Assembly (NCBI RefSeq): GCF_004364345.1 | Contig: NZ_SOCA01000005.1 | Span: forward strand, 1 to 64,000 | Origin: Prosthecobacter fusiformis | Lineage (GTDB): Bacteria > Verrucomicrobiota > Verrucomicrobiia > Verrucomicrobiales > Verrucomicrobiaceae | DNA: 64,000 nucleotides | Direction: 5' to 3' | Part shown: positions 41,788 to 62,434 of the stretch, in pieces | Numbering within the stretch: position 1 is the stretch's first letter | Layout: every line of letters begins with the position of its first letter | Program-made: the position numbers and the translations under genes | Notes under the pieces: generated by a model | Database searches by the model: none | The model's input: only the letters and a program-made list of their open reading frames with translations | What the model was told of the DNA's origin: nothing

Positions 41788-43974
41788 TTACTTCTTCGTA
41801 GAAGAGGGCTTGGTCGGCGGTCCCTGAATATAATAATCACGCAGAGTTTTGGTTTCCAGCAACTGAACCTGGTCCACCTTTATCAACGAAGAGTACATAA
41901 TAGCCTCCGCCAAAAAGCCTGAAAATTGTTCGTATGTCGGGGCATTGTCCTGCTTGGAGCCGACGACTTTGCCAAACTGGAGCTTGGAGAGGGGCGCAGT
42001 GGGAGCCTTTATTTTGGCGGTGGCGCGGTATAGTTTCCCTGGGGCGTCCCGGGCGCGTAGCTCGGCAATGCCATCGCTGGACCAAGTAAGGATGGCGGTG
42101 CAGGGGAGGGTGCAATCCACATCACGGCTAGTAATGGAAACAGTGGAGCCACCACTGCGGAACTCGGCGACCAGCTTTTTGGTCTTGTCCAGTTTGAGGA
42201 TGACTGCGGCTCCTCCATCTCCGGTCAGGGTCAGGAGGCGCATGGGGAGGCGGGTGCCATCCGCCTGGAAAACTACACCCAGGGTCATGCCGGGCATGCC
42301 ACGGGGAGCTGGTGAACCGAAGGGGAATTTCTCTTTTTCACTGGCGGCATCGCTAAGAGACATGGCGATAGGGCGACCTTCCCGAGGGCGGAAATCCAGC
42401 ACGGTGCGGTTCGGCTTGGCCCCAATGATGCCGTCTTTAGGCGTGGGCCAGAAGGTGCGTTTGGGGGCGTGGGAACTGCTTTTATTGTAGGCCCGCATGA
42501 GGTTGTCATTGGCCAAAGGCGAGATGTCATGCCATTCCAGGACATCGGAATCCGGGGTGGCGAGGCGTCCGTCTTTTCCCGTGCCGCCAACTCCGGCCAC
42601 CAGATGAAGACAAATATCTGTATCCGCTGGTGGGAAAAGGCGGTCCTGGGGGAGCTGGTACGTGACCTCGGCAGGGCCACTGGAGCCGAGGAGACCCGAG
42701 GAGGCTGCACCTCCGCTTTCGGGATCGTTTTTGCCACTGAATAGAAACCAAACACCGGCAAGAAGCAAAACCGCAGCGACGCCTATGGCGGCGATGAGCT
42801 TGACGTTTGGCCCCTTTTTTTCCTCCTCGTGAACGGAAGCCGATGAATGCAGGCGCACTGAAGGCGTCTTGGTGACGCTGCCAGTGCGTCTGCTAGCCGT
42901 GGTGCGACTGGCTGGTGGGCTGGTGCGAGCCATCGGCGTGGTCTGAGCGGCCATCTCAATAATGGGCTCGGCATCCGGGATGACTTCGAGAACCGGCTGA
43001 GCATACGCTTCGGCTGGTTGCTGATAATACCCTGGCTGAATGGGAATGGTGCTGGTGGTGGCGCTGCCGGGATACAGAGACTGAGTGTAGCTGCCTGGCT
43101 GCTGGCCATAACCTGGAGGCATCCAGGGCATCATCGGGGGAGCCGCAGACATTTTTTCCCAGGCGCGAAATTCTTCGATGGCTTGCTGCGCGCCCGTGGG
43201 GCGGTCTTCAGGATTCAGCGCCATCAGACGCAACACCCAGGCTCCCAGCCACGGCGGGACGTGGGGAGCGACAAGATTCAGAGGAATGATGTCGTGGTTG
43301 ATGTGTTTATCGATGACCTCATTGAGAGTCTCGCCATCAAAGGCTTTGCGGCCGGAGAGAGCTTCGTAAAAAACGCAACCGAGGGAGTAAAGATCAGTCC
43401 GCACGTCCACCGGAGCACGGGTGAGCTGCTCCGGTGCCATGTAGAAAATGGACCCCATGACGGTGCCCTCTTGGTCCTCGGTCTGTTTGCGCGCTCGCAT
43501 GCCAGCACGGGCGAGACCGAAATCGATGATTTTAGACTGCATGCGCCCACCAGGGAGGCGCTCGACCTTGATGTTCTCCGGCTTGATGTCGCGATGGAGA
43601 ATATGGCGCTGATGCGCGGCCAGGAGGCCTTCGAGACTCTGGGATGCAAGTTCCTTGAAATCGTCATAATGAAGAGGACCGCGGCCGACGACATCGGCGA
43701 GGTCTTCTCCCTCAAGAAGCTCCATGACCATGAAAAGACCTTCCGCATCGCTAGCCACGTCAAAAATGGTGACGATATTAGGATTGCGGAGGGAGGCGAG
43801 GGCATCGGCTTCACGGCGCAACTCTGTTGCCAGGTTTTGATCTCCGGTGGCATCGTTGGCTGACATGAGGCGCTTGATGGCGACCCAGCGCTTTAACTCA
43901 TTGTCGTAGGCACGAAAAACTGCCCCCACGCCGCCAGAGCCGAGTTTGTCATAAATCTTGTATCGTTCCGCCAT
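41788..43974 (-). CDS. Transmembrane Ser/Thr protein kinase with ConA-like extracytoplasmic domain
   Basis: This 728-residue Hanks-type kinase has KLGSGGVGAVFRAYD (glycine loop), AIKRL (catalytic Lys), HILHRDIKPENIKV (HRD loop), IIDFGLARAG (DFG) and GSIFYMAPEQLT (APE). A linker rich in Pro and Gln follows (about 270-390), then a TM helix (LIAAIGVAAVLLLAGVWFLF, about 405). The last 300 residues are extracytoplasmic and contain a concanavalin/LamG-like beta sandwich (DVLEWHDISPLANDN, FSGFLAEAIMY). The layout suggests a glycan- or surface-sensing receptor kinase. The start at ATG 43972-43974 is firm. Divergent from the giant secreted-protein gene at 44348. Confidence 0.92.
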   Translation of the reverse strand: MAERYKIYDKLGSGGVGAVFRAYDNELKRWVAIKRLMSANDATGDQNLATELRREADALASLRNPNIVTIFDVASDAEGLFMVMELLEGEDLADVVGRGPLHYDDFKELASQSLEGLLAAHQRHILHRDIKPENIKVERLPGGRMQSKIIDFGLARAGMRARKQTEDQEGTVMGSIFYMAPEQLTRAPVDVRTDLYSLGCVFYEALSGRKAFDGETLNEVIDKHINHDIIPLNLVAPHVPPWLGAWVLRLMALNPEDRPTGAQQAIEEFRAWEKMSAAPPMMPWMPPGYGQQPGSYTQSLYPGSATTSTIPIQPGYYQQPAEAYAQPVLEVIPDAEPIIEMAAQTTPMARTSPPASRTTASRRTGSVTKTPSVRLHSSASVHEEEKKGPNVKLIAAIGVAAVLLLAGVWFLFSGKNDPESGGAASSGLLGSSGPAEVTYQLPQDRLFPPADTDICLHLVAGVGGTGKDGRLATPDSDVLEWHDISPLANDNLMRAYNKSSSHAPKRTFWPTPKDGIIGAKPNRTVLDFRPREGRPIAMSLSDAASEKEKFPFGSPAPRGMPGMTLGVVFQADGTRLPMRLLTLTGDGGAAVILKLDKTKKLVAEFRSGGSTVSITSRDVDCTLPCTAILTWSSDGIAELRARDAPGKLYRATAKIKAPTAPLSKLQFGKVVGSKQDNAPTYEQFSGFLAEAIMYSSLIKVDQVQLLETKTLRDYYIQGPPTKPSSTKK

Positions 43975-44347: not shown

Positions 44348-47300
44348 ATGAAGTTACATTTATCTTGGCCTCGCCGCTCTCCATGGATGCTGTTCCTGCT
44401 GACTAGCTGGCTATGCGCGAATATTCAGGCTGAAACCAACTCATTTGAGTCATCCGATGATCTCGCGGGTTATACCCTTCTGACAACAAATGCCAATGTG
44501 ACAATGGTCCAGCAAGCGGGGGTGGGGACTGGAAACCCTGCCACTGGCGGATTGAAGCGTTTGTCCACGACCTCCAGTGACACCACCGCTTTGGCCCATC
44601 AAGTGGCTAGCAATACGGCAGGTGCCGTGACGCAGTGGAAGCAATCCATTCTTTTAAATTTTAAAGATGTGGAAGAGATCACCACTGGAGAAAAGAAAGC
44701 GGAGTGCAGGATCGGCTTCATCTCCACGACGACAAACTCGGGCAACCTCAAGGAATTCCTCCACAAGACGCACAAAAGCATCCATTTGAAAATCAAGGCT
44801 GAGCAGAAGCCTGGGGATAACAAGAGCCGTAACCTGGAGTTTGAGGGCAGCAATTTTGCGACAGATAAAGAGGTGAAGTTTGGAGGTCAGACTTTTAACG
44901 ACAGCAGTTATTTTGACGACTGGCTGCGCGTGACGTTGACGGTGAATCGGACATCTGCTTCTACCTTCAGTGCGACGATCACCTTGGAATCCCTGGGGCT
45001 GGATGGGACCCAGACCCCTGTGCTGCTGCGTACAGCGACACAAGCAGGCCTGGAGAATGCGACGATGAGCGCGGCCAGCACTGTCTATGCTGCCTTTTTG
45101 ATCAATACGGACAAGTCCGCGAACATGCCGGTTTATGTGGATGATCATGAGGTGGAGATGACGGCCGTGACTCCAGAGCCACCTGTCGCTCTTGCGGCAT
45201 CCGACGTGACGTCGAACGCTCTGCGGGCTAACTGGCAGGCCAGCAGCGGGGCAGGCAGTTACATCGTGGAACTGACAACCGCAGCCAATGCGTTTGCTCC
45301 AGGGACCTTCATTTCTGCCACAGGCACGGGCGGGCAGGCGAGTGGATTCGAAGTCAGCGGTAGTGATTCGTCCAGCACTGTCATCACGGGCCTGGGGGCG
45401 AATACCGCTTACGTTTACCGAGTCCGTGCCGTGAATGCTGCCGGTAACAGTGGTGAGTCAAATCCCATCAACGTGAGCACGCTGGCCATGAATGCCAATG
45501 TTCCTCCGACGCTGGATGCCATCCCCGATTACCCGGTTTTGACGCCGACTGCCCCTGAGCAGGATATTGAACTGAGCGGCATTACTGCGGGGTTTGGCGA
45601 GTCCCAGACCCTGATCGTCACGGCTGTTTCATCTGCCCCATCCATCATCCCTCATCCACGGGTTCTATACACCAGTGACAACACAGTCGGAACTCTTCTG
45701 ATGAAGCCTGCGGGCGCTCTGGGGACGGCAACCATCACAGTGACGGTCAATGATACCCAGCCTAACAACAACACCATCACGCGGTCATTCACCGTGGAAG
45801 TGAGGCAGCCACCGGTGGAACTGAGTTTTGATGAGGCGCCCGACCTGGACAATCTGACGGTCACGAATCAAAACGCTACTTTGACCCATTCGGCTACTGC
45901 CGGGATAGGTTCGCCTGCTGGAGGCGGTGCCATTTTCCAGGGCAATGCGACTGGGTCCGACCAAGCCATGCTGGCTTTGCGGGATCAGGCCTATCCAGGT
46001 CCGGCTCCGACTTTGATGCGGCAGTCCATTTGGGTGAATTTCAAGGAAGTGGACGATGACGAAACCAAGAAGCGCAAGAGTGAAGTCCGCATGGGCTTTG
46101 CCGATAGCCCAAACATACCGAGTGAACTGAAGAAGTATTTTGAGGAGGGCAAGCGCGCATTGCATTTAAAGGTGATGGCAGAGAATGATCCACAGGACAG
46201 CAGCAAGGATCATGTGATCAAAGCCCGAGTGACCAGCTACAATGGCAGTCAGAAACAAGAATCAGCAGAGCTGGTGGTTTCCGATGAGACGGTGATGAAC
46301 CATTGGCTGAAAGCCACCTTCGAGGTGATGGCTGTGGGCACCGTGCAGTTTCAGATGACCTATAAGGTGGAGGACTATGGTCCGGATGGCACCACACTCT
46401 TGGGTACGGTTTTAGAAGGCGCACCCTTCACGGTCACCAACGGTACTTTGGTCTCAGCACCGTGGATCTACGCTGGATTTTACGTGGATACGGAAAAAGG
46501 CACGGACATGAAGACCTACCTGGATAATCACTTGGTGGAGATCCAGAACTTGCCCCCTGAAACCCCAGTGGCCATGGCTGCTCATCAAATCACCAGTTCT
46601 TCGTTTACCTCGAATTGGGAAGTGCCTGTCGGCCCCTATCCGAACGGATTTATTGTGGAGGTGGTACGCGCTACGGATACTTTCACCGCTGGCAAGTTTA
46701 TCTCGGCCACTGGCAGCACCGGGCAGACGACAGGTATCCAGGTGATCTTTGCCGATCAGCGCAGCCTGCGCGTACTCAATCTCGCTTCCAACACTTCTTA
46801 TAAATACCGGGTGCGTGCGCTCAACATTGCCGGAGAGAGCGATAATTCAGATGCGATCAATGTCACGACACTGACCACGGGCTCAAATTCGGCACCGACT
46901 TTAAACCCTATTTCGAATCAAGAAGATATCGCAGCCAATGGAGGTCTGTTTACCGTTCTTCTCAGCGGCATCAGTGATGGTGGCGAGTTCACCCAGGGAG
47001 TCACAGTGACGGCTTCATCAAGCAACACGGCGTTGATTCCATCAATCCAGGTGAATTACTACGATCCGGAAGATGTCGGCTCGATCACCTTTACTCCTGT
47101 TCTAGGGCAGACGGGTACGACCATCATCACTGTGACAGTGAATGACGGGGAGTCCGTGAATAACACTCTGGTACGCACGTTTACAGTCAATGTAGTCAGC
47201 CCAGTATCGGCGCTCGCATTTGAATCGGAAGCGGATGAGGGTGAATATCTGATCGTTTCAGAACAGTCTTCACTGGCTCAGACTGCGGATGAAGGGACTG

Positions 47301-48673
47301 GGACACCGGCTGGTGGAGCGTTCAAGTTTGAGCGCACGGCACTGCCCACTGAGCATGTTTCCCTGGCCTATCGTCGGGTGCGTTTTGATGCTCGCAGCAT
47401 TCCTCATGCGCGCACCAGTCTGATGATGAATTTGAGCAACGTGCTCAACATCACTTCCGGCAATAAAGACAAAGCTGAAATTACCTTGGGCTTCATCGGT
47501 AGCACGACGCCGAACTCCAAGATCAAGGACACGTTCAACAAGACTCACCCTTCTATGTTCGCCAAGCTGAAGTTTGAACATGGCGATGGGAGTGACAGCC
47601 AATTGGAAATCGAAGTCGGCAGCTACAATGGCAGCAACGACAGCAATAGCGGCAAGAACTCGCTAGATAATTTTAACGCTGCCGAAAACTGGCTGAGGCT
47701 GGACTATCATTTTGTGCGCTCGGGATATGACCAGTATCTGTGTGCGTATGAGCTTTTCGACTGTGGACCGGATGGCACTTCTACTCCCGTGCTGCTTCTC
47801 TCCAGTGATGCGGTGACGGTGACGAATACGGCTTTCTTTAATGACAGCAGCATCTACGCAGGTTTCCAGGCAACAGGTGAGAAGCAGGGGCACACGGCCT
47901 TCTGGTTCGATAACCACGTCGTGGATGTGAATACGACGGCTGCGGATGCCCCTGTGAACCAGGCGGCGAATGACTATACTGATACCGGTTTCACCATGGC
48001 CTGGGCAGGCGGCATTGTGGGGCGTGAACCGACAGGTTATGTGATTGAGCTTTGCGACGCTGACGATGCCTTTGCTCCAGGCACTCTGATTTCTGCCGCT
48101 GGCGTCGGTGGGCAGGCCGAAGGAATTCTGGTGGAAGATGGTTGGGCTTCTGAATACCCCATTTCCGGCCTGCCAGTCGGGCAGACGTATCTCTACCGGG
48201 TACGGGCTTTGCGTGGCACTGAACTGAGCGCGGTCCAGCCTCCTGTTCAGGTGACGATTGCCCCGCAGACCCCGGCACAGTCATTGGAAGACTGGCGTCT
48301 TGCTTGGTTCGCGAGTGAATTGCAAGATCCTGCAACTCTGCCTGAAAATGATTATGACCAGGACGGTGTGACAAACATCGCTGAGTATGCCATGGGGCTG
48401 AATCCGCGCGAGCCTGATGCCTGGCTTTCGCAGCCGCGCTGCACCCTACAGTCAGGCTATCTTTGCCTCACTTATCGCCGCCGGGCCAACATGGAAAATG
48501 TACAGATCGTCCCTCTGGCCAGTGGTGATCTTGCAGCTTGGAACAGCCAGGGACTGGTGACTCTGTCCATTTCCAGTCCTGATGAGGAAGGAATCGAAAC
48601 GGTCATTGTGCGAGATGCAGTTCTCCAGTCTTCCCGTAGCCGTCGGTTTATGCGCCTGGGTCTTGATTTTTAA
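44348..48673 (+). CDS. Giant secreted protein: three ConA-like and three FN3 modules
   Basis: The protein is about 1441 residues. A signal peptide (WMLFLLTSWLCANIQA) is followed by three similar modules. Each has a ConA/LamG-like beta sandwich of about 240 residues (about 30-275, 490-730 and 950-1195), beginning with a short FESS/FDEA/FESE start and containing a YVDDHEVE-type or YLDNHLVE-type closing strand. Each is followed by a fibronectin type III domain (275-375, 735-845 and 1200-1307; YVYRVRAVNAAG, YKYRVRALNIAG and YLYRVRALRG). After the first two come cadherin-like beta domains with TITVTVND. The end has a DQDGVTNIAEYAMGLNP calcium-loop motif. It is an adhesin or glycan-binding protein by architecture. 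ATG 44348 is preferred because it starts the signal. The ECF sigma gene begins five bases after its stop. Confidence 0.85.
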   Translation: MKLHLSWPRRSPWMLFLLTSWLCANIQAETNSFESSDDLAGYTLLTTNANVTMVQQAGVGTGNPATGGLKRLSTTSSDTTALAHQVASNTAGAVTQWKQSILLNFKDVEEITTGEKKAECRIGFISTTTNSGNLKEFLHKTHKSIHLKIKAEQKPGDNKSRNLEFEGSNFATDKEVKFGGQTFNDSSYFDDWLRVTLTVNRTSASTFSATITLESLGLDGTQTPVLLRTATQAGLENATMSAASTVYAAFLINTDKSANMPVYVDDHEVEMTAVTPEPPVALAASDVTSNALRANWQASSGAGSYIVELTTAANAFAPGTFISATGTGGQASGFEVSGSDSSSTVITGLGANTAYVYRVRAVNAAGNSGESNPINVSTLAMNANVPPTLDAIPDYPVLTPTAPEQDIELSGITAGFGESQTLIVTAVSSAPSIIPHPRVLYTSDNTVGTLLMKPAGALGTATITVTVNDTQPNNNTITRSFTVEVRQPPVELSFDEAPDLDNLTVTNQNATLTHSATAGIGSPAGGGAIFQGNATGSDQAMLALRDQAYPGPAPTLMRQSIWVNFKEVDDDETKKRKSEVRMGFADSPNIPSELKKYFEEGKRALHLKVMAENDPQDSSKDHVIKARVTSYNGSQKQESAELVVSDETVMNHWLKATFEVMAVGTVQFQMTYKVEDYGPDGTTLLGTVLEGAPFTVTNGTLVSAPWIYAGFYVDTEKGTDMKTYLDNHLVEIQNLPPETPVAMAAHQITSSSFTSNWEVPVGPYPNGFIVEVVRATDTFTAGKFISATGSTGQTTGIQVIFADQRSLRVLNLASNTSYKYRVRALNIAGESDNSDAINVTTLTTGSNSAPTLNPISNQEDIAANGGLFTVLLSGISDGGEFTQGVTVTASSSNTALIPSIQVNYYDPEDVGSITFTPVLGQTGTTIITVTVNDGESVNNTLVRTFTVNVVSPVSALAFESEADEGEYLIVSEQSSLAQTADEGTGTPAGGAFKFERTALPTEHVSLAYRRVRFDARSIPHARTSLMMNLSNVLNITSGNKDKAEITLGFIGSTTPNSKIKDTFNKTHPSMFAKLKFEHGDGSDSQLEIEVGSYNGSNDSNSGKNSLDNFNAAENWLRLDYHFVRSGYDQYLCAYELFDCGPDGTSTPVLLLSSDAVTVTNTAFFNDSSIYAGFQATGEKQGHTAFWFDNHVVDVNTTAADAPVNQAANDYTDTGFTMAWAGGIVGREPTGYVIELCDADDAFAPGTLISAAGVGGQAEGILVEDGWASEYPISGLPVGQTYLYRVRALRGTELSAVQPPVQVTIAPQTPAQSLEDWRLAWFASELQDPATLPENDYDQDGVTNIAEYAMGLNPREPDAWLSQPRCTLQSGYLCLTYRRRANMENVQIVPLASGDLAAWNSQGLVTLSISSPDEEGIETVIVRDAVLQSSRSRRFMRLGLDF

Positions 48674-48678
48674 TCCCA

Positions 48679-49251
48679 ATGTTTGCTGATTCTAACAATG
48701 CCATTTCTGCTTGGCTGGTTCATCGCGACCAGTCTGCTGCCAGATGGCTTGTGCACACGCACAGCCCTCAGGTGCTGAGCCTCGCCCGTCGTTGGGGCGC
48801 TCCTGCTGAGATGGAACAGGATGTGTTGCAGGAGGTTTTCATGCGTGTTTTCAAAGCCTTGCCCAGACTGGATCTGACGCAGCCGTTTGCTCCTTGGCTG
48901 ACAGTGCTCGCCCGCAATACGTGTTCGAAATTGCGTCGCCGCTGGTGCCATAGGCATCGTCTGAGTGCCTGTTTTGAGAACGCAGCTCTGGACGTTGATA
49001 CCTGTGAATTGGCAGATGAGCGGGACGCGCATCAGATCATCGCCTCACAAGAGCGGCAGGACCTGTTGGATGAAGCCATGCGGCAACTGCCGGAGCGTGA
49101 TCGCAGCCTGTTGAACCTTCAATACGGTGAGGGCCGCAGCGGGTCAGAAATAGCCACTGCGATGGGCGTCTCTGCAGGCACTGTCAGAGTATCCATTCAT
49201 CGCATCCGTCACCGCCTCACCCAGGAAATTTCCCGTTTATCGAACCTTTGA
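48679..49251 (+). CDS. ECF-type RNA polymerase sigma factor
   Basis: This 190-residue sigma-70 family protein has a region 2 (SLARRWGAPAEMEQDVLQEVFMRVFKAL) and a region 4 helix-turn-helix (MRQLPERDRSLLNLQYGEGRSGSEIATAMGVSAGTVRVSIHRIRHRL). It lacks region 3 and is short, as expected for ECF factors. Its start lies five bases after the giant secreted-protein gene, and it is followed after ten bases by a membrane-protein gene, so the sigma factor sits inside the run that includes the pseudopilin cassette. An anti-sigma factor is not evident beside it. Confidence 0.85.
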   Translation: MFADSNNAISAWLVHRDQSAARWLVHTHSPQVLSLARRWGAPAEMEQDVLQEVFMRVFKALPRLDLTQPFAPWLTVLARNTCSKLRRRWCHRHRLSACFENAALDVDTCELADERDAHQIIASQERQDLLDEAMRQLPERDRSLLNLQYGEGRSGSEIATAMGVSAGTVRVSIHRIRHRLTQEISRLSNL

Positions 49252-49261
49252 TTTTTATACT

Positions 49262-49843
49262 ATGAGCACACCCAAAACACCTCCCGCTCCACCTTCCTGG
49301 TGGTCACCTAAAGCAGGCATCTGGCTTGCCGTCCTCTTCGTCGGCGCTGCTGGATTTCCATACATCGCTTCCACCACCAAACTCCTGGCTGAAGGCAAGC
49401 CTGTGACGCTGGATGCAGTTAAAGATGTGGCGGAAAAGGACATGATGAAAAAAGAAAAAGAGCACGCCAAAGACGACGCCAAAAAGTATCGTGAAATCAA
49501 GAGCCTTGCTGTGGGTGCCGATGGCACCGTCTGGTCTGGTGGCAAGGCTGGCATCTTCCGCATGAAGGATGGTGCTTGGCAGGCTGTGCCGGGGTATGCA
49601 GATATCGAGGCCAAACAGATCTCCGTGGTCGGGAACGGTTCCGTCCTGGTGACTGGCAAGCAGGGCGTCTATCGTCATCAGGGCGATGCCTGGACCCAGG
49701 TTTATGAAGGCGAAGCGCATACGGCTGCTGAATCCGCTGACGGGACGCTCTACGTCACCACCAAAGAGGGGTTAAAGAAAAAAAGCCCTGGCGCTGAGTG
49801 GACGATGATGAGCGATGGATTTCCTGTGACGGAAGACAAGTGA
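49262..49843 (+). CDS. Membrane-anchored protein with beta-propeller-like repeats
   Basis: This 193-residue protein has a TM helix near the N-terminus (GIWLAVLFVGAAGFPYIA, about 16-34), then a charged helical linker rich in Lys, and three short repeats of the pattern IKSLAVGADGTVWSGGKAGIFR, ISVVGNGSVLVTGKQGVYR and ESADGTLYVTTKEGLKKK, the blade style of two-component-like 'ligand-binding' propellers. Too short for a full propeller, so it may assemble with others. It lies between the ECF sigma factor and cassette protein D and is probably a partner in the same system. Function not known. Confidence 0.6.
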   Translation: MSTPKTPPAPPSWWSPKAGIWLAVLFVGAAGFPYIASTTKLLAEGKPVTLDAVKDVAEKDMMKKEKEHAKDDAKKYREIKSLAVGADGTVWSGGKAGIFRMKDGAWQAVPGYADIEAKQISVVGNGSVLVTGKQGVYRHQGDAWTQVYEGEAHTAAESADGTLYVTTKEGLKKKSPGAEWTMMSDGFPVTEDK

Positions 49844-49869: not shown

Positions 49870-51516
49870 ATGGCCTCAAACTGGAAACTCACCAATCGTG
49901 TCTGGCATGCCAATCTCGGTATGCTGGCCGCGATCACGCTGGGCATCATTGCCCTGTCGTGCCCGTTCATTGCTCATAAGTGGGAAGCTGGGAAGTTTCT
50001 AATGGAGATCCATTACGGCAAATTTCTGCCAGCGCAGACCCGGTGGATCTGGATTGATTCACAGGGACTCCTGCTAGGTTTTCTGGTGGTCTCGGGCGTG
50101 CTCATGCATCGGAAATCGGTCAAAAAAGCAGCCAGCACCGCCGCGGATGATCCGGCGGTGGCAGGGTCCTCTGTAACCATTCTCAGCCTGGGGGATGATG
50201 CCCCCGCTCTTGCCTTTGCCAATGGTGCTGAGCAGATCGGCCTGCGTGCTTTTCGGGGGCAGCCTGAAGCCTTGAAAAATCTGGACCTGACGCTGGAGCG
50301 GTGGTTAGTGCTCACGCATGGAGGAAGAACTGAGCCTGCCCATATCGCCTCGCTAACCGAAAGTGTTTCAGCGTTAAAAAAAGGCAGTTTAAAACGTCTG
50401 GAATTCGCGATTGAATCCGGCGCAGAAGCTCCCCTGGCAGATCTCATTGCCGCACTCACCGCCGCTGGTGCAAAAGCAATGAAACTGGATAAAAGCCCGG
50501 CGGCCTGGCAGCCTACCGTCATTGAGCATCTGCGCACTCAGTCGCCCACCCTAAAGGCTCGGCCCGCAGCTAAAGTCAGACCTGTGGTAAAACCTGCATC
50601 TGGTTTTACCGTGTTGGAAATCCTGATCACCATGGTGATCATCACGGTCCTCATTAGCGTGACGGCGAGCTCCTTCCAGTCTCTCAAACGCAAAGACGGT
50701 GTTCACGACGCGGCCTTGGAATTTGCCCAGATCCTGCGTGAGGCACGTCAGATGGCCAAGCGTCAAAATACACTGGTGAGAGTTGCACTGACAGCACCGG
50801 TGATGACGGGTGTGCTCAATGACTTTGGCCTTACTGAAGATGATCTCCGGCCGGGTTGTGGGGTCTATGCTTTCCGTGTTCCCGCGGATCAACTTGAGCC
50901 TGTTGCATTTACCCAGCCGACAACCGCCTTTGAAAAAAATGCCAGCTTGAGGGAGACCTCTCCGCTTACCCGCGTGCCACTGCCGCGCAGTCTCATTGGT
51001 GGATGGACGCAAGCACCTGGGCATGCAGGTTGGCACCGCTGGAATGAGCACGTATGGATTGGTGGACCTGTGATGGAGCAGTATCTGAAAGGGGACTTTG
51101 AAAGCTATTCGTCCCTGATGCTATACCAACCTTCCACCACGTGGGCTGCCGAGCGTAATGAGGATGACCGCAGCATCAGCCCTTTTTCCACGTATCCCCC
51201 TGAGATGCAGCGGACGCCCTATCGCCATCCCCCCCGTCCCACCGCACTGGCTCTGGCTGAAAGCGAAGAAGTAACACTGGACGATGGTACTCAGATTCCC
51301 GCCCAAGAGATCTGGGGCACGGCTCCTGTTGTCCAGTGGAGTGAGGTCAATTCAGAGAATGACCTGCCCATGGCAGCCGTTGACTTTACGCCCGAAGGAC
51401 GCCTTGCCGGTACAGTGTTAACTGAGGTGGAGTTTCATTTCCGTCCGGGTCCTGAGCGCGAGCCGCTCTATAAAGTCATTATCCGCAGTCACGATGGGGA
51501 GGTTCACATCGAATGA
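49870..51516 (+). CDS. Verru_Chthon cassette protein D with an N-terminal membrane extension (GspH-like pseudopilin)
   Basis: This 548-residue protein has two parts. Residues 1-85 form a two-helix membrane segment (ANLGMLAAITLGIIALSCPF and IDSQGLLLGFLVVSGVLMHR) of PepSY-associated TM type; 86-240 are soluble. At residue 245 a complete prepilin motif appears, ASG/FTVLEILITMVIITVLISV, with Gly245, Phe246 and Glu250 (Glu at +5), followed by an amphipathic helix (EFAQILREARQMAKRQNTLVRVAL) and a beta-rich GspH/FimT-like end. This is cassette protein D. Peptidase cleavage at 245 would free the N-terminal part. An internal GTG at 50584 could start a shorter pilin. Its stop overlaps the next start by four bases. 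Confidence 0.8.
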   Translation: MASNWKLTNRVWHANLGMLAAITLGIIALSCPFIAHKWEAGKFLMEIHYGKFLPAQTRWIWIDSQGLLLGFLVVSGVLMHRKSVKKAASTAADDPAVAGSSVTILSLGDDAPALAFANGAEQIGLRAFRGQPEALKNLDLTLERWLVLTHGGRTEPAHIASLTESVSALKKGSLKRLEFAIESGAEAPLADLIAALTAAGAKAMKLDKSPAAWQPTVIEHLRTQSPTLKARPAAKVRPVVKPASGFTVLEILITMVIITVLISVTASSFQSLKRKDGVHDAALEFAQILREARQMAKRQNTLVRVALTAPVMTGVLNDFGLTEDDLRPGCGVYAFRVPADQLEPVAFTQPTTAFEKNASLRETSPLTRVPLPRSLIGGWTQAPGHAGWHRWNEHVWIGGPVMEQYLKGDFESYSSLMLYQPSTTWAAERNEDDRSISPFSTYPPEMQRTPYRHPPRPTALALAESEEVTLDDGTQIPAQEIWGTAPVVQWSEVNSENDLPMAAVDFTPEGRLAGTVLTEVEFHFRPGPEREPLYKVIIRSHDGEVHIE

Positions 51517-51974
51517 ATTTCTCCCGGACAGCTCTCGCGAAGATTGCCTCCACACGCCGCGCAGGTTTCAGTCTGACTGAAATCATGTTTGCCCTGGCTT
51601 TGGTGGCAGGCTCCGCGCTGCCTGTTTTGGGACTGCTGAGTGTGGGGCTGCTGGATGCCAAGGAGGCCGGGGACCACCGCCTGACGGCAAATCTTCGCAA
51701 TACAGTCCACCAGCTTTTATGTGATCCCGCCTGGCCAGCAGAGGCTGTTGCCACGGGGGAATGGGATGCCATACGTTATTTTGACGATCAGGGCCGCATG
51801 ATCGAGAACGCCCGCAAGGAGGAAGCCGCAGTGATCATGCGCATGAAGTCCCTGCCAGGCATGGGTTATCAAAGTGACTGGCTGGAAACCGTGCAAGTGA
51901 CCTTCCAGTCAGGGGACCGTGAGGACATCGTCACCCGCACCCTGGTGCAGCGGCGCAAGAAGCCTCAGGGATGA
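51513..51974 (+). CDS. Verru_Chthon cassette protein B (GspI/PilV-like pseudopilin)
   Basis: This 153-residue protein has a prepilin start: RRAG/FSLTEIMFALALVAGSALPVLGLLSVGLL, with Gly18, Phe19 and Glu23 at +5. The following residues resemble PilV/GspI, whose role is a minor pseudopilin near the tip of the filament. Its ATG overlaps the stop of cassette D (ATGA). The cassette B family (TIGR02598) is defined for Verrucomicrobia and Chthoniobacter. Confidence 0.85.
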   Translation: MNFSRTALAKIASTRRAGFSLTEIMFALALVAGSALPVLGLLSVGLLDAKEAGDHRLTANLRNTVHQLLCDPAWPAEAVATGEWDAIRYFDDQGRMIENARKEEAAVIMRMKSLPGMGYQSDWLETVQVTFQSGDREDIVTRTLVQRRKKPQG

Positions 51975-51986
51975 GTTGAATCTGGC

Positions 51987-52655
51987 ATGACCCACCACCT
52001 GCTATCCACGCAACGCCGTCATTCAACGGCGACTGCCGCAGCTGGATTCTCCCTGGTGGAGATGCTAGTGTCCACTGTGCTGACGGTTTTGATCTGTGTC
52101 TTGGTGGCAGAAATGTCCACGAACATGCTGGGCAGTGTAAGCTCAGCCAGCGGGAGGCTGACAGCGGCACAAAAGCTCGATCAACTGCGCCACATCCTGG
52201 GGGATGATCTGGCCCGGCTCCCACGCCTTGAGGACGGAGAAAAGAGGCTGCAAACCACCTCCGATGACCAGAAATGGACCATCGAGATCAACCTGCCTGC
52301 GCGGGCGGAGGTGCTGCGGCGTGAAGGCCGTGCCTGGCAGCAGGTGATTTATCATTGGGACCGCGAAAAGGCTCTGATTAGCCGTGTGATTCTGGATGCC
52401 GAAGGCGAGCTGTCCCAGCCAGAGATCATCCTCACTGGCGTCATTTCTTTCACGCCGGAATGGCTTGAAAACAGTGCTGTGGAAGAGGATGGCGAGAAGG
52501 ACTGGACTCGCGCAGCGTTGCCAGCCATTTTACGCCTCAATGTGCGCCTGACCGATGTGTGGGAAGAGGGCAAGGCGGAGGAGCAGACAGCCCAGGCCAA
52601 CCGGGTGCGTGACTTTGAATTGCTATTACCCGTGGGAGGCGGAGTCAGCCTGTGA
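51987..52655 (+). CDS. Verru_Chthon cassette protein C (GspJ/PilW-like pseudopilin)
   Basis: This 222-residue protein has the prepilin start AAAG/FSLVEMLVSTVLTVLICVLVAEM (Gly20, Phe21, Glu25 at +5), then LTAAQKLDQLRHILGDDLARL and a beta-rich end, like PilW/GspJ. Cassette C family TIGR02599. It lies 12 bases after protein B and its stop overlaps the start of protein A (GTGA), so D-B-C-A are translationally linked. Confidence 0.85.
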   Translation: MTHHLLSTQRRHSTATAAAGFSLVEMLVSTVLTVLICVLVAEMSTNMLGSVSSASGRLTAAQKLDQLRHILGDDLARLPRLEDGEKRLQTTSDDQKWTIEINLPARAEVLRREGRAWQQVIYHWDREKALISRVILDAEGELSQPEIILTGVISFTPEWLENSAVEEDGEKDWTRAALPAILRLNVRLTDVWEEGKAEEQTAQANRVRDFELLLPVGGGVSL

Positions 52656-55600
52656 AACGACTCCAATCTAAGCTTCCATTACGCAAAGGAGCCGCCTTAT
52701 TATGGGTGCTCTTACTCTGTGGCTTCATGGCGGCTGTGGCTGTGGCTTTTTTAAGCAGCAGCAGCATTCAGAATAATGCCGCACGCCTGGATCAAGCGGA
52801 CGTCCTAACTGATGAACTACTGCAAGCGGCCCAACAAGAAGTGTTGGCAAAATTGCACGAGGGTTTTTCGGTGGAGGTTTCCGGTGCTTACAAGGGACAC
52901 GTGGCGGCAGCCCCAGGGCTGCTTGAGGTGAGGCGCTATTATACTCCGTGGAATCGTGGCACCCAGGTTGGGGCCGCAGCCTTCTTGGGCACGCCGGCCT
53001 CGCCCGCCCCGTTTTCGCAGCCATTCAGTTCCAAGTATGGCAAAAATCTGGCGAACCCTCGCTACATTCCTTTGTTCTCCTGGAAAACCTTTGCCCCGAG
53101 ACTGAAAAATATCACAGTCAGAAACGGCAGTCCTGCGCGGACGAATCCTGATTACAATCCGTCTCTTTCCTTTAATCTCAATACTCCGCGCAACCCATTT
53201 ACACCCGGGGCATGCCTGCTTTCAGGCGTCCCCGAAGAGTCCGAAGCCCTCATTCGTGAACGGATAGGAAAAGACTGGAGCGGTGACGGTTTTCGTATCG
53301 GCACGGGTCAAACCAGTGCTGAGCGCCCGGTCTGGGTGCAATGGATTCCCATCCTGAAAGATCCGGCCTTACCGGCAAGTGTGACCAATCCCATTATTGG
53401 TCGTTATGCATACTGGGTGGATCTCGAAAACACCAAACTGCATGTGGGTGAACCCATGCAGGATCTGCGGGAAACACGCCAGTATGCACGGCTCATCGGT
53501 GAGCCTGATGCAGTGGAAAAGGGTGGCTCGTGGTATGATCAAGGGGCCAGTTCTTCCATGCGTGCCCTGCGTCTGGCCCTGGAAGGCGGGCTGCCTGCGG
53601 TCGAGAAGGGGAGTGCAGGTTTCACTGCTCGCAACGGCAGTTCGGGCATTGGTTTTGCACCCGGTGCCGCTCAGGAGGCCCGGAACTCCTGGCTGGGATG
53701 GGTGGATGGGAGGCCTCCCATGGCTGCTGGTACGCGAGTGGTGGATTGGAGCTTTTTTTGCGCTCCCTGGCCACGTGGCTTTCAAGATTTCACCATTGGC
53801 ACAATTTTGCAGAAGCGTTATCGCGAATGGGAAAACAGCCCGGCTGAAAAACCAGTTCACCCATGGCTTCTACGACTTCCGCAGACGAATGATGAATCAG
53901 ACGAAACACAGGCTAAAGCTGCCCTCTTGACTCAAGTGGCCACGGCTGGGCTAACCAACTTTGGTCATGAAGAGGAGCTGGATCCTCTCGGCAGGCCTAA
54001 GCTGAGCCTGATGGAATTTCAGCTTGCAGCTACCGCCAACCGCAGCACCACCGTCTCCCTCACGTCCATCGAAGGCAGCACACTGTGGAAGCGTGTGACG
54101 GATGATGCCTATGCGGCTTGTTATTTCCCCGGTCTGCTGCCCATGAAAGGTGTCAAAAAATCATTGGCAGATAGCTTTAACCAGTTCGCCGGCACGGGCA
54201 ATGCAGGCGGCAAATCCAATGGCAAGGCCGCGATGCTGCAAATGCTGGTGAATGTGGCGGAGGCGGCACAACCAGACACTGTGGCACCGGTCATTGATGC
54301 GGACAAGGGCATCGTCGGTGCGCGCTCCATGCCTTATGTGGCAGAGGTCAGCACACGCGCTCGCAGTGCCCTGTGGCTGTTGCCGGAGGATATCCGCTCT
54401 GATAAGGACGTGCTTCTCAAGCTGAATGCCCAAGGCGGATATGAGTTTAAACACCCCTATGAAAATGTTGAGCGTAACCTGCGCTTTTATGCCACGCACG
54501 TCACTGTGGACTTGTGTCTGGGGTTGGTGAATCCGAATCCGTTTGAGACTGAAATGTTCACCGGGGAGATTGAGGTGGACGTGGATTGGGGGCCGCTGCC
54601 CTCCACCGCTATCGTGAAAAAAGGCTGGCTGAAAGCGACTCTGGAAGGACAGTATGCGCTCACCCCCGAGGCAGGAAAAGACCCCAAGGCCGGGCGTGTA
54701 ACCGGCCACGCAGTCAACATCCATCTGGGGGTGGTACCAGCTTCCATTCTCAATGACAACGCCCGTGCCAGTGCGCTACGTATCAAGGGATGGCGCATCC
54801 TGCGCAATGGGCAGGTCTGGCACCAAGTGCCCATCCGCCATCCTGGCGGCAGTGCCCCCCGCGAGTGGTGGCAGATGGCGGCCAGCGGTAACAATGCTGG
54901 CAGTCCCTCCAGTGCCAGTGATGATGAAAGCCTGCAATCATTGCATGCCTATACTGAAGGTGGATACCGTGCTGTTGGCTGGTTCACCAAGCGGACGATG
55001 GACAGCCTGATTCCCCAGACTCTATTTGTGACTGGATGGACAGGAGATGGGCAAAAAGATGCCCAGCTAAAGGAACGCGTGGAGTTTTGGGAAAACTTCA
55101 CGCGCCGCACGGCAGTGCTTGAGCGTGTGGTCAGTTTGGATCCCGTGGTCGGTCATCGCACTGGCACGGCATCCCCTGCGGGCTTTTTCGGCAGCGGCCA
55201 TTTTTATGGCATGCTAGGGCATACGTGGCGGCATGCCCCGGTGATGCCTCAGGTCGCCGACCTTCCCGCCGTCGCTCCTGCGAGTGGCCAGAAATTCCCG
55301 CCGTTGAAAGTCAAAAGCAGTACGGCTCAGCTATGGACTGTGCTGGCGGGAGGCTCGACAAGTCATAACGTACAGGTGCGCCAGCCTGGCGAAGACCGGC
55401 TGCGCAAAGGCAGTGTGAGCTGGGATATTCCCACCTGGACCACGCAGGCTGATGCGACCCTCTATGGAGGTGAATATCTGACTCAGGAATACGAGCAGGG
55501 CACGGCGAGCGAGGAGGAGGATGAGGAAGATGAAGACTTGGGCGAGCCTGGGCTTCCGGCTTCACTCACCGCCATTTATCTTTGTCCCGCCGTGGAAGGA

Positions 55601-57127
55601 CCTGCGCCGCAGGGAAAGCTGCCCTTTTATGAACAAAAGGATGACGACGGTTTCACGATTAACTACAGTAAAGACGGCACAGCGGCCACTGCCTCTTTCA
55701 GAAGCATGGATGTGGAACTGGATGATGCTGGTAAAATCCCTGCAATTGATAAGGACTACATAAAACGTGGAGACAACAAAAAGGGACCACGTTCCTTCTT
55801 CTGCTCTGCGCCTCCCAAACGTCCATTCGTCTCCGTCGGTGAGATCGGCTTCTGTCACTCAGGCTTCCCGCAGACACCAATCCTGGTGGGGCCAGAAGAG
55901 GGCCGCACGGAATATCAGCTCAACAGTCCCCGCAATGGTCCGCCTATGCGCATGCTGCTGGATCTGCTGGCCGCCCCCCGGTTTACCAATGCTCTGGGCG
56001 GGACAGTTTCCGAAACTGAGTGGATGGGGGGGCAAGCTTCGACATCCTCTCACCGGCATGCCTGGAACGTTAATACCCTGATCGCCCATGATGACTACAT
56101 GGCTCTGCGCCAGGGCGGAAGCACCCTGCTGGAACTGAAAAAAGAACAGAACCCCTCGACCCTGCCTGTGCATGCAGTTTGGTCGCCAAATGCCCAGGGC
56201 TTCGCCCGACGTGAAACGGGGGCAGACGGCTATCTGGGAAAAAATGCGGAGGATCTCGTCAAAAAAGATCCGGGGCATATTCAGGACCGTCATCTTCGTC
56301 CCGGCATCAACCTCAGTCGGCCATGGAACATGTGGTTAGGCGTCATAGCCGGAGACTTTACTCCCTCACGCTCTGGGGACAGCCTCTCCTGGGGGGCTGG
56401 CAATTCAGCGGGCCTTTTCTATGGGCCTGCTCTCATGACCTGGAGACCAGGCAAAGGCTCTGGCTCCGGTAGCAATGCGTGGGTGGACTTTAAAAGTCAG
56501 CTTCCTGGGCATGGACGTCTCCTGGCGCTGGGAGAAGATGGCCGCAAAGATGACAAGAACGAAAACGCAGATTACCTTAAAGGTCGCTTTGCCGCTGATC
56601 AAAACCTCGCGGCCCTGGACCCCAATTTGTCCTTTTATATGCCTGCTCATTTTGCTACCCGGATGAGCCTGGTGCCTATGCGCCACTTCATCAGTGATCT
56701 GGCTCTGGATTATCATCAAAACAATCATGAAAGCGATTGGCTGCGCCTGAAGACCGCCCTCAATCCAGGCATCGGTGGCCAGACTCCACCCGCGCCAGAC
56801 GGCGAGCAGGACGCGGCAAAAAAATTAGCCGGTGCAGGTTTCCCCGGCGGGTATCATTCCACAGGTGTTTACTACCAGGCTCCCATGGCCCTCCTGACGA
56901 ATCAAGCCGGTGTCAGTGCCAATGCTTTCACTGCTTACATCGTCGTTCAGTCATTGCGTGATCGGGGCAAAGCGCGATCTGGCGTTGCCAATTCCGGCAT
57001 CGGACACTGCGACCCGGATGACGAAATCCTGGCAGAACGATGGGCCCGCGTCATCCTGGTCAAGAAACTGGTCGCCAACGCACCTCCTACTTTTGAAATC
57101 GTTTTTCGGGATATTGCCGGAAGATGA
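52652..57127 (+). CDS. Verru_Chthon cassette protein A (giant GspK/PilX-like protein)
   Basis: This 1491-residue protein has a short N-terminal LRKG/AALLWVLLLCGFMAAVAVAFLSSSS, with Gly13 before the helix but Trp18 where other pilins have Glu at +5; GspK is known to lack this Glu because it caps the filament. The long rest is beta-rich with no TM and only vague repeats, plus an acidic run (SEEEDEEDEDLGEPG, about 950-965). GspK proteins are about 300 residues; the size here is exceptional. Family TIGR02600. Start GTG overlaps the previous stop. By inference it is the large tip protein of a pseudopilus, displayed outside. Confidence 0.85.
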   Translation: MKRLQSKLPLRKGAALLWVLLLCGFMAAVAVAFLSSSSIQNNAARLDQADVLTDELLQAAQQEVLAKLHEGFSVEVSGAYKGHVAAAPGLLEVRRYYTPWNRGTQVGAAAFLGTPASPAPFSQPFSSKYGKNLANPRYIPLFSWKTFAPRLKNITVRNGSPARTNPDYNPSLSFNLNTPRNPFTPGACLLSGVPEESEALIRERIGKDWSGDGFRIGTGQTSAERPVWVQWIPILKDPALPASVTNPIIGRYAYWVDLENTKLHVGEPMQDLRETRQYARLIGEPDAVEKGGSWYDQGASSSMRALRLALEGGLPAVEKGSAGFTARNGSSGIGFAPGAAQEARNSWLGWVDGRPPMAAGTRVVDWSFFCAPWPRGFQDFTIGTILQKRYREWENSPAEKPVHPWLLRLPQTNDESDETQAKAALLTQVATAGLTNFGHEEELDPLGRPKLSLMEFQLAATANRSTTVSLTSIEGSTLWKRVTDDAYAACYFPGLLPMKGVKKSLADSFNQFAGTGNAGGKSNGKAAMLQMLVNVAEAAQPDTVAPVIDADKGIVGARSMPYVAEVSTRARSALWLLPEDIRSDKDVLLKLNAQGGYEFKHPYENVERNLRFYATHVTVDLCLGLVNPNPFETEMFTGEIEVDVDWGPLPSTAIVKKGWLKATLEGQYALTPEAGKDPKAGRVTGHAVNIHLGVVPASILNDNARASALRIKGWRILRNGQVWHQVPIRHPGGSAPREWWQMAASGNNAGSPSSASDDESLQSLHAYTEGGYRAVGWFTKRTMDSLIPQTLFVTGWTGDGQKDAQLKERVEFWENFTRRTAVLERVVSLDPVVGHRTGTASPAGFFGSGHFYGMLGHTWRHAPVMPQVADLPAVAPASGQKFPPLKVKSSTAQLWTVLAGGSTSHNVQVRQPGEDRLRKGSVSWDIPTWTTQADATLYGGEYLTQEYEQGTASEEEDEEDEDLGEPGLPASLTAIYLCPAVEGPAPQGKLPFYEQKDDDGFTINYSKDGTAATASFRSMDVELDDAGKIPAIDKDYIKRGDNKKGPRSFFCSAPPKRPFVSVGEIGFCHSGFPQTPILVGPEEGRTEYQLNSPRNGPPMRMLLDLLAAPRFTNALGGTVSETEWMGGQASTSSHRHAWNVNTLIAHDDYMALRQGGSTLLELKKEQNPSTLPVHAVWSPNAQGFARRETGADGYLGKNAEDLVKKDPGHIQDRHLRPGINLSRPWNMWLGVIAGDFTPSRSGDSLSWGAGNSAGLFYGPALMTWRPGKGSGSGSNAWVDFKSQLPGHGRLLALGEDGRKDDKNENADYLKGRFAADQNLAALDPNLSFYMPAHFATRMSLVPMRHFISDLALDYHQNNHESDWLRLKTALNPGIGGQTPPAPDGEQDAAKKLAGAGFPGGYHSTGVYYQAPMALLTNQAGVSANAFTAYIVVQSLRDRGKARSGVANSGIGHCDPDDEILAERWARVILVKKLVANAPPTFEIVFRDIAGR

Positions 57128-60175: not shown

Positions 60176-60336
60176 GGGGCACTATGAAAATTAAATAAAC
60201 CAGCAGCTCAAGAAATGACGGATCGGCCCCCTGCCCGCAAGCTTTTCATCAATCACTTGGCGCGTTTGAGGATGGAACGGATGACGGTGTAATTTCTTGT
60301 CCGGTTTTGGACCTACGTGTGAGATACTCTGGAACC

Positions 60337-60870
60337 ATGAATACGCATGAGACACGAGCCGCGCAGCTTTTCCTCACCCATCACGACTTTGTGAAGGGGG
60401 TGGCGCTGAAGTATGCTCCGTGGCCAGGGTTGATGGAGGACATAGCCCAGCAGGTATTTTTAGAATTCATGGCCAAGGAAGAGCGTTGGGATCTGGAAAA
60501 TGACCTCTGCCCCCTGTTGGCCACCATGACCCGCCATGTGGCGATGCGTTTGTGGCGCGACCGCACCAAGTCGCGTCCAGAAGTTGTGCAGAAGCTGGCA
60601 GACCACATCCGCCTCCTGGCCGAGGAAAGTGAATTGCCGCCCAGGTATGAGGAGGAGGTGGCACTGCTGCGAGGCTGCCTGCAAAAGCTTCCGGAAAAAA
60701 GCCGGGAACTCATCCAACTCTATTATTACAGCGATATTGGCACACCACAGATCGCCGAACAGATGGAAATGAAAGCAGATACGGTCTGCCGTGCCCTGTC
60801 CCGCGTAAGGGATAAACTTCGCGAATGCATCCAGCGTCAGATTCAGCAAGGAGGTGTGGCCCATGTCTGA
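60337..60870 (+). CDS. ECF-type RNA polymerase sigma factor (Planctomycetes-Verrucomicrobia type)
   Basis: This protein of about 177 residues has region 2 (VKGVALKYAPWPGLMEDIAQQVFLEFM) and region 4 (LPEKSRELIQLYYYSDIGTPQIAEQMEMKADTVCRALSRVRDKLREC). The PGLMEDIAQQVFLEF segment is typical of the ECF groups paired with FecR-type membrane proteins. Its end overlaps the start of the FecR/LamG gene by eight bases, so the two are coupled. Start at ATG 60337 is preferred over an upstream in-frame start at 60307. Confidence 0.85.
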   Translation: MNTHETRAAQLFLTHHDFVKGVALKYAPWPGLMEDIAQQVFLEFMAKEERWDLENDLCPLLATMTRHVAMRLWRDRTKSRPEVVQKLADHIRLLAEESELPPRYEEEVALLRGCLQKLPEKSRELIQLYYYSDIGTPQIAEQMEMKADTVCRALSRVRDKLRECIQRQIQQGGVAHV

Positions 60871-62434
60871 GTTATCTCATGATCCTGAGGTGCTGATTCA
60901 GCACTACCTTGAAGACCGGCTGACGGAGGATGAAGCGGCCCTTCTGCTGGAGCTTTTACAAAAGCCAGCTCTAGGAGAAGCCGATCCGCTGCATGAAAAG
61001 CTGCTGCATCAGCTCTCAATGGATGCCATGCTGCGGGAGGTAAAAGCCGCTGCATCCACTTCCACTGGACCGGTGATTTTACCGGCGGCACCGAGTGCAA
61101 AAACGAAAGCCCGCTTTAGCTTCACCACACTCACCTCAGTGGCAGCAGTGGCTGCGTGCATCACTCTGGCGTTAACGTGGCTCTTTGTTTTTACCCGCCA
61201 GCTTCCTTCCATGGCGGATGCGGAGGATACGACAGCAGCCGTGGCCGTACTATCACGAGGGGTAAATCTGGAGTGGCAAGGGGAGTCGCATACGCCGGGC
61301 AGTCCACTAAGTCCAGGCTGGCTCAGGCTCGAGTCAGGCCTGGCACAGATTGAATTTTATCAGGGAGCACGTGTCACCCTGGAGGGCCCGGCGGCATTTC
61401 GACTGGTCTCTTCCAGCCAGGCGTATTGTACCGCAGGCAAACTGAGCGTGCATGTGCCACCGCAGGCCAAAGGCTTTCGCATTGATACTCCGAAGGGAAC
61501 CATCGTCGATCTGGGCACAGACTTTGGTCTGGACCTCAACGTGCCGACTGCCGAACTGCATGTCTTTAAGGGGGAAGTGGAACTGCATGCCACAGGCGCA
61601 GCCATGAAACCGCTGTATGAAGGGCAGGGGATGACCTTGGGAGATGAAAACCAAGCCTTCACGGCCAATCAGGCTGCTTTTGCATCCCTCAATACCGTCG
61701 ATGAACGTACTGCGGAATCCCAACGACTGGCCTTTGAAAGCTGGCTGTCCAGCAGACCTGAGTGGAATAATGAGGCCTCATTGCAAATGCGGTTAGACTT
61801 TCAAGATCCCGTCGGCACCCGCTCCCTGCGGAATCACGCAGTAAAGGCGCCGCAGGTGCCTGCTGGAAGCATCGTCGGCTGTGACTGGACAGAGGGGCGC
61901 TGGCCTGGCAAACGAGCTCTGGAGTTCCGCAATGTGAGTGACCGGGTGCGGCTCAGCATTCCAGGGGAACACGAGGCCATAACCCTCTGCGCATGGGTGC
62001 GGGTGCATGGTCTGGACCGTCCTTTCAATTCACTGTTCATGGCCGAAGGTTATGCGGATGGGGCTATCCACTGGCAGATTACGCGGGATGGGAAGCTGCG
62101 GCTAGGCATTGCAGGCAGGGATGGGCATCCTTCGCGTGACCATGATACGCCCGCCCTTTTTAAACCGGAGCGGTTTGGCCAATGGATGCACTTGGCCACA
62201 GTCATAGATCCCGTAGCCAAGGAAATCCGTCATTATCTAAACGGCGAAGAGGTCGCACGTGTACCCTGGCTTCATGTCTTTCCAGTACGGCCTGGCTTAG
62301 CGGACCTGGGCAACTGGAATGACGGGGGCCGCAGTGACCGTGTGGCCATCCGGAATTTCAGCGGAACGATGGATGAATTCATGCTCTTTTCCCGTGTGTT
62401 GACAGAGCAGGAAATTGCAAAGCTGGCCCGGTGA
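60863..62434 (+). CDS. FecR/LamG-domain transmembrane protein, likely anti-sigma partner
   Basis: This protein of about 523 residues has an N-terminal ZAS-like helical region (HDPEVLIQHYLEDRLTEDEAALLLELL), a TM helix (VAAVAACITLALTWLFVF, about 97), a FecR domain (LSRGVNLEW through LGTDFGLDLN, with the DTPKGTIVDLGT signature) and a C-terminal LamG/ConA domain (LCAWVRVHGLDRPFNSL, HYLNGEEVA, FSGTMDEFMLFSRVL). The strong ribosome-binding site AAGGAGG (60848-60854) lies in the end of the sigma gene, nine bases before ATG 60863. The unit is expected to sense a surface ligand, probably a glycan, and control the sigma factor. Usual in this phylum. Confidence 0.88.
   Translation: MSELSHDPEVLIQHYLEDRLTEDEAALLLELLQKPALGEADPLHEKLLHQLSMDAMLREVKAAASTSTGPVILPAAPSAKTKARFSFTTLTSVAAVAACITLALTWLFVFTRQLPSMADAEDTTAAVAVLSRGVNLEWQGESHTPGSPLSPGWLRLESGLAQIEFYQGARVTLEGPAAFRLVSSSQAYCTAGKLSVHVPPQAKGFRIDTPKGTIVDLGTDFGLDLNVPTAELHVFKGEVELHATGAAMKPLYEGQGMTLGDENQAFTANQAAFASLNTVDERTAESQRLAFESWLSSRPEWNNEASLQMRLDFQDPVGTRSLRNHAVKAPQVPAGSIVGCDWTEGRWPGKRALEFRNVSDRVRLSIPGEHEAITLCAWVRVHGLDRPFNSLFMAEGYADGAIHWQITRDGKLRLGIAGRDGHPSRDHDTPALFKPERFGQWMHLATVIDPVAKEIRHYLNGEEVARVPWLHVFPVRPGLADLGNWNDGGRSDRVAIRNFSGTMDEFMLFSRVLTEQEIAKLAR

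Follow-up and report, generated by a model that had tools for sequence, protein, structure and literature searches.

A divergent Verru_Chthon-like cassette of Prosthecobacter fusiformis may encode a minor-pseudopilin tip with a giant GspK-like subunit

We analysed the first 64,000 nucleotides of contig NZ_SOCA01000005.1 of Prosthecobacter fusiformis (hereafter the window) and, within them, a cassette of four plus-strand open reading frames (ORFs) that run in the order D-B-C-A at 49870-57127 (Table 1). The original prediction had read this cassette as a Verru_Chthon system that forms a minor pseudopilin operon of the GspH-I-J-K type with a giant cap, its genes linked by overlapping stop and start codons or by a 12-base gap. 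The ORFs indeed overlap by 4 bases, lie 12 bases apart and overlap by 4 bases again. In D, B and C, the prepilin motif has a glutamate at position +5 (G245/FTVLE, G18/FSLTE and G20/FSLVE, the slash marking the predicted processing site), while A, as had been noticed, lacks it and has a tryptophan there (G13/AALLW). The four sequences thus follow the prepilin rule of the type II secretion system (T2SS), in which H, I and J possess Glu5 and K does not.

The transcription unit probably begins upstream of the cassette, at the gene for an exported FN3-repeat protein (44348), since every gap from there to A is at most 26 bases: the FN3 gene is followed after 5 bases by a gene for an extracytoplasmic function (ECF) sigma factor, after a further 10 by a gene for a protein with one transmembrane (TM) helix and propeller-like repeats, and after 26 by D. 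Inspected by eye, the N-terminus of the FN3 protein resembles a signal peptide. These three genes, like the fusion found in D (see below), were absent from the earlier reading.

Table 1. Features of the cassette and of the genes preceding it in the same putative transcription unit (window coordinates)
Feature	Position	Strand	Description
Exported FN3-repeat protein	44348..48673	+	~1441 aa from the likely start, ORF opens at 44237; PF00041 fn3 E 4e-24
ECF sigma factor	48679..49251	+	190 aa; TIGR02937 E 2.6e-27
Single-TM protein with propeller-like repeats	49262..49843	+	193 aa; Tectonin match weak and sub-threshold (E 8e-4)
D	49870..51516	+	548 aa; PepSY-like two-TM module, flavodoxin-fold domain and GspH/FimU-type minor pilin
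D residues 1-93	49870..50148	+	two TM helices, PepSY_TM-like; model helices 3-35 and 55-93
D residues 100-231	50167..50562	+	flavodoxin-fold domain, predicted cytosolic; pLDDT mostly 72-92
D Gly245/Phe246	50602..50607	+	prepilin peptidase site predicted from sequence; N_methyl match 50596-50661
D residues 246-548	50605..51513	+	mature pilin; TIGR01708 GspH E 4e-7, below cut-off
B	51513..51974	+	153 aa; minor pseudopilin in the position of GspI; sub-threshold TIGR02598 match (E 1.6e-6)
C	51987..52655	+	222 aa; minor pseudopilin, GspJ-like by position; N_methyl E 0.02, weak TIGR02599
A	52652..57127	+	1491 aa; giant GspK-like protein, GTG start
A residues 14-273	52691..53470	+	N-terminal helix plus the beginning of the GspK frame
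A residues ~321-1162	53612..56137	+	middle region
A residues ~1419-1491	56906..57124	+	C-terminal strands that would complete the GspK frame

The arrangement is not a chance one, as the operon is conserved in three relatives. G009 (UBA2429) possesses the same series of genes, the FN3 protein gene included and in the same position, with an A protein 68-69% identical to that of the window. G280, which belongs to another genus of the same family, has the propeller gene followed by D, B, C and A, and G462 has the propeller gene, a separate gene for the N-terminal module of D, and then pilin D, B, C and A. The propeller-like gene directly precedes the gene carrying the D module in all four genomes. 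The D and A genes of G462 contain in-frame stops (L077, 9759 and 12345), which may reflect decay or sequencing error. Counting the genome of the window itself, the D module is present in 4 of 68 genomes of the family and in 2 of 388 genomes of the phylum, and the window-type cassette is a sparse accessory element of the Verrucomicrobiaceae. Viral contigs yielded no relatives of A, and plasmids none of the FN3 protein.

Judged by its profiles, the window cassette is a divergent sister subfamily that falls outside Verru_Chthon as the families are curated. Against the NCBIfam models TIGR02600 (A), TIGR02598 (B), TIGR02599 (C) and TIGR02596 (D), the four proteins score 16.5, 28.4, 15.2 and 26.2 bits, respectively, far below cut-offs of 332.3, 51.4, 256.5 and 70. 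The Verru_Chthon label is therefore retained only as a distant relationship. This relationship is apparent from profile-profile comparison (hhalign) with the classical families, which gave probabilities of 98.2% for A (E 6e-14, window columns 15-273), 97.9% for B, 96.0% for D and 88.8% for C, the C match covering the N-terminal helix region only. By contrast, the middle of A has no detectable relation to that of classical A (below 1%). It is this combination of sub-threshold scores, profile homology and an unrelated A middle that leads us to place the cassette in a sister subfamily. Both groups share the set of four adjacent genes A, B, C and D, the prepilin motifs and a giant A without Glu5; the window cassette differs additionally in the 245-residue module on D and in the ECF and propeller genes upstream. 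Nor is D-B-C-A a general order, most genuine cassettes running A-B-C-D. The source genome holds four genuine A genes outside the window, in cassettes of either order; one of these cassettes, on contig C3 (L061, 9833-9855), seems to be devoid of B, A being directly followed by C and D. Our literature search found no paper naming "Verru_Chthon", and a text search of a PEP-CTERM paper drawing on the V. spinosum genome returned no mention of the cassette.

Protein A is about five times as long as GspK (1491 versus about 300 residues). Sequence comparisons were of little help in relating the two: hhalign found no match between window A and the GspK profiles, classical A matched them with a probability of 58% limited to the N-terminal helix region, and a search of PDB sequences with the A profile returned nothing meaningful. 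Structure prediction with AlphaFold2 was applied to a genuine classical A of 1178 residues from genome G127, with an 18-row alignment that included the window subfamily. The model is of moderate confidence (mean predicted local distance difference test score, pLDDT, of 62; predicted TM-score, pTM, of 0.67), with an N-terminal helix of 61 residues and C-terminal strands mainly at pLDDT 70-90. When PDB entries were structurally re-aligned to it, four GspK/XcpX entries came out on top: 5vtm_X (Z 10.5, 235 residues, 4.0 Å), 3ci0_K (Z 10.4, 256/280 residues, 4.2 Å), 9a1f_T (Z 10.3, 268/295 residues, 3.8 Å) and 6utu_I (Z 10.2, 221 residues, 4.0 Å), the next row having a Z of 5.1. Because these alignments span model residues 14 to 1178, the GspK frame would be made of both chain ends, with several hundred residues inserted between them. 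The A family thus appears, from the model of this related protein, to be a GspK with a giant insertion; GspK itself has an alpha-domain inserted in its sheet (PMC8179133). In the C-terminal region of A, residues N1424, Q1433, D1457 and E1462 are invariant. The predicted fold of the related protein thus strengthens the original notion of a giant GspK-like cap. As to the large exported domain that the tip had been suggested to carry, the extra mass of A is there, but it appears to be inserted within the GspK frame rather than appended to it, and its middle differs from one subfamily to another.

Protein D turned out to be a fusion, so that its designation as GspH-like applies to residues 246-548 and not to the first 245, an unrelated membrane and flavodoxin-fold module. 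For the pilin part, profile and model both indicate a GspH-like fold. Its score with the GspH model TIGR01708 is below the curated cut-off (30.1 versus 80 bits), and hhalign matches it to GspH proteins of the same genome (96.1%) as well as to classical D; in the model, residues 274-548 superimpose on FimU with a Z of 10.2 (93 residues at 2.6 Å). The two N-terminal TM helices weakly match PF03929 in all four members (E 0.017 and 15.4 bits for a gathering threshold of 28.8). Four histidines of the module (His13, His36, His48 and His80) are invariant in these members and might correspond to the haem ligands of FoxB; a PDB search with the N-terminal profile recovered neither FoxB nor any PepSY structure. 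The domain that follows has a flavodoxin-type fold, as VIA-align gave a Z of 12.5 to 4h2d, of 11.3 to the flavodoxin-like domain of sulfite reductase and of 9-11 to many flavodoxins. The phosphate-binding loop for flavin mononucleotide (FMN), T/S-x-T-G-x-T, is not conserved by eye, the four members having SLGDDAP, GLGADAP, DFGSRG and DLDEKG instead. The module thus shares with PepSY-like electron-transfer proteins of the FoxB type (PF03929) a TM motif with conserved histidines, a flavin-type fold and, in G280, a neighbour that resembles a TonB-dependent receptor, but it has two TM helices only, a PF03929 score under the cut-off, an unconserved FMN loop and a minor pilin fused to it. The literature connects PepSY proteins with TonB receptors and with electron transfer via haem (PMC8238504, PMC11334425), which would fit the neighbour in G280 by analogy and proves nothing for window D.

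The 245-residue module stands ahead of the prepilin site in three genomes (the window, G009 and G280). Both halves of D are under purifying selection (dN 0.086 and dS 1.2 for the PepSY part). One may ask whether the fusion is only apparent, pilin D being produced also or mainly from an internal start and the PepSY/flavodoxin-like protein having a separate activity. Indeed, each of the three genomes with a fused D has a GTG codon shortly ahead of the cleavage site, at distances of 7, 6 and 14 codons; starts there would give leaders of ordinary length, and the two parts are separate genes in G462. Yet no Shine-Dalgarno-like sequence is evident by eye before these GTG codons, and all three genomes, which represent two genera, preserve the frame although the linker diverges fast, so that we consider this explanation unlikely.

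If the fusion is translated as such, the topology inferred for D (N-terminus inside, two TM helices, cytosolic domain) would place the Gly/Phe site on the cytosolic side of the membrane, where prepilin peptidase cuts. This placement, along with the conservation of the Gly/Phe site and of Glu+5 in the D proteins of the window and G280, argues against the idea that the four proteins form a periplasmic complex anchored in the inner membrane that never enters a filament, with D uncleaved and tethered by its PepSY-like module. Such a complex would account for the additional pair of TM helices that D has ahead of its pilin helix in three genomes, and for the lack of linkage between the cassette and any filament core. 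However, a tether encoded by a separate gene, as in G462, is hard to reconcile with it, and the alanine that G009 D has at position -1 is also found in several other pilins of the source genome; we hold an anchored complex to be unlikely. A more elaborate possibility, which we find rather doubtful, is that prepilin peptidase frees the D pilin from a two-TM, flavodoxin-fold leader of 245 residues, possibly haem-binding through the four invariant histidines, and that this leader couples a redox or metal signal at the inner membrane to the assembly of a tip that has a giant GspK and serves a single exported surface protein. A true D fusion would provide an unusually large prepilin leader.

We then considered the machinery with which the cassette might operate. 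In genome-wide scans, the window (C5:1-64000) yielded no T2SSF, T2SSE or secretin match, and the only N_methyl motifs were those of the cassette itself, in agreement with the earlier statement that no major pilin, ATPase or secretin adjoins it; the same is true of GspF. The earlier reading presupposed a prepilin peptidase and called for a check for a T2SS or type IV pilus (T4P) core elsewhere in the genome. One complete prepilin peptidase with a GxGD motif was found, and several cores are present, the genome encoding eight secretin matches, several T2SSE-type ATPases and seven T2SSF-type proteins. Since peptidase and cores are thus encoded elsewhere, a cassette devoid of a motor is plausible if it acts in trans. 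Three T2SS-like loci (L063, L065 and L066) carry minor pseudopilins of their own; no minor pilins were seen near the pilB-pilC-pilin locus (L064). A separate T4P-like locus (L067, 7621-13915, contig C11 of G000) comprises an ATPase fragment, inner-membrane proteins and a 530-residue pseudopilin-like protein without Glu5.

A clue to the function of such cassettes came from the genes that precede the genuine ones. A same-strand gene of at least 1100 codons lies directly upstream of 8 of the 16 best-scoring genuine cassettes, as compared with none of 221 control genes, the cassettes having been counted by reading and the control genes by script. Of these eight giants, seven appear to be exported and one is a histidine kinase, genes having been called simply as longest ORFs and export judged from sequence ends and repeat content. 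For the exported giants (7/16), Fisher's test gives a p value of 1.5e-9; with two orthologous pairs collapsed (5/14), the value is 3.5e-7. We regard the linkage between cassette and giant exported gene as a strong lead, not a census. PATR-repeat and PEP-CTERM proteins are also encoded near genuine cassettes, and PEP-CTERM genes occur in the 20-kb surroundings of 8 of the 16, versus 3 of 16 control regions, a weak enrichment; direct upstream adjacency is the stronger signal. The window cassette fits this pattern loosely, two small genes separating D from the FN3 gene, whose product is nevertheless a candidate partner or substrate.

Taken together, these data lead us to propose, with a probability of about one half, that the cassette encodes a complete minor-pseudopilin set, with one H-, one I-, one J- and one K-like member, forming an exchangeable tip for a giant surface protein, on machinery encoded elsewhere. 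The host structure would be a type IV filament or a T2SS pseudopilus, with motor, platform, secretin and prepilin peptidase supplied from other parts of the genome. Prepilin peptidase would cleave all four proteins before their hydrophobic helix, presumably leaving the leader of D embedded in the inner membrane and its flavodoxin-fold domain facing the cytosol. D, B and C would then join A, which should be the topmost subunit, as GspK is: known tips are built from H-, I-, J- and K-type subunits with one that lacks Glu5 as the cap (PMC10191384), and A lacks this residue. At the tip, the giant insertion of A may bind or guide a large exported protein from a neighbouring gene, which in the window is probably the FN3 protein; this partner role is suggested by the recurrent linkage described above. 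Speculatively, the D module, the propeller protein and the ECF sigma factor might tune assembly or expression. Processing, assembly, use in trans and partner binding are all inferred.

Several observations weigh against this proposal. The GspK fold was predicted for a related A and not for window A itself, whose homology to classical A is strong at the N-terminus and weak at the C-terminus, where the hhalign match is collinear but has an E of 0.008 and a probability of 4.9%. Foldseek alone gave no significant match of the G127 model in the PDB, GspK surfacing only upon re-alignment. The assignment of B to GspI and of C to GspJ, which was based on order, motif and size, is not borne out by hhalign, whose profiles fail to discriminate among the H, I and J types. 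No gene for a core component accompanies the cassette, in contrast to a T2SS, whose core genes lie alongside. Finally, the upstream partner varies within the window subfamily: two genomes have the FN3 protein there, G280 has a protein resembling a TonB receptor (recognized by eye from its sequence), and G462 has others.

Some of these properties would also suit a tip for adhesive display, in which the insertion of A is a functional module carried by a type IV pilus, the neighbouring exported proteins being merely co-regulated. Modular pilins, onto which further domains are grafted, are widespread (PMC8179133), and those of S. sanguinis (PilB and PilC), CofB and the PilY1-capped tips likewise have a large extra mass on the tip pilin (PMC8179133, PMC10191384). 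The A middle differs between subfamilies, as effector modules do, and the pilB-pilC-pilin locus of the genome has no minor pilins nearby. In A, however, the mass appears to be inserted within the pilin frame, profile scans recognized no known effector or adhesion domain, and it would remain unexplained why giant exported genes recurrently sit next to cassettes. We consider an adhesive display tip rather unlikely.

The exchangeable tip proposed here would resemble T2SS GspH-I-J-K (XcpUVWX) in its motif order, its GspH/FimU-like D and its last subunit without Glu5, and would differ from it in the size of A, in the extra membrane module on D and in the distance to core genes. If the proposal is correct, there exist several interchangeable minor-pseudopilin tips on shared machinery, many of them combining a giant GspK with a giant exported protein encoded beside it, suggesting that Verrucomicrobiaceae build custom tips on common secretion or pilus machines for particular large surface proteins. 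This would be a simple genetic answer to the question of how one machine serves different large substrates, and would give a testable role to named protein families for which the papers searched describe no function. The A proteins, at 1178-1771 residues, would also surpass the 860-residue extreme of the modular pilin survey (PMC8179133), a length that window A exceeds as well.

A few neighbouring features deserve mention. A signal peptidase I gene directly 3' of A was rejected as a member of the system; it is probably unrelated, because its homologue is not adjacent to the cassette in G009. The operon adjoins, on the opposite strand, a gene for a 728-residue Ser/Thr protein kinase (41788-43974), and an ECF sigma factor gene followed by one for a FecR/laminin-G-like protein at 60307-62434 is likely a regulatory pair. 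In the FN3 protein (44348-48673), the segments between fn3 domains resemble, by eye only, repeated lectin-type domains. Elsewhere, an A-type gene of G245 (contig C3; L126, 7917-18614) without recognisable B, C or D beside it lies behind genes for exported proteins of 1207 and 1043 residues. In G264 (L118, 15861-18022), a PATR/PEP-CTERM protein gene and a genuine cassette follow another gene and an ECF-sigma-like gene, the latter identified by eye and reminiscent of the ECF factor of the window operon.

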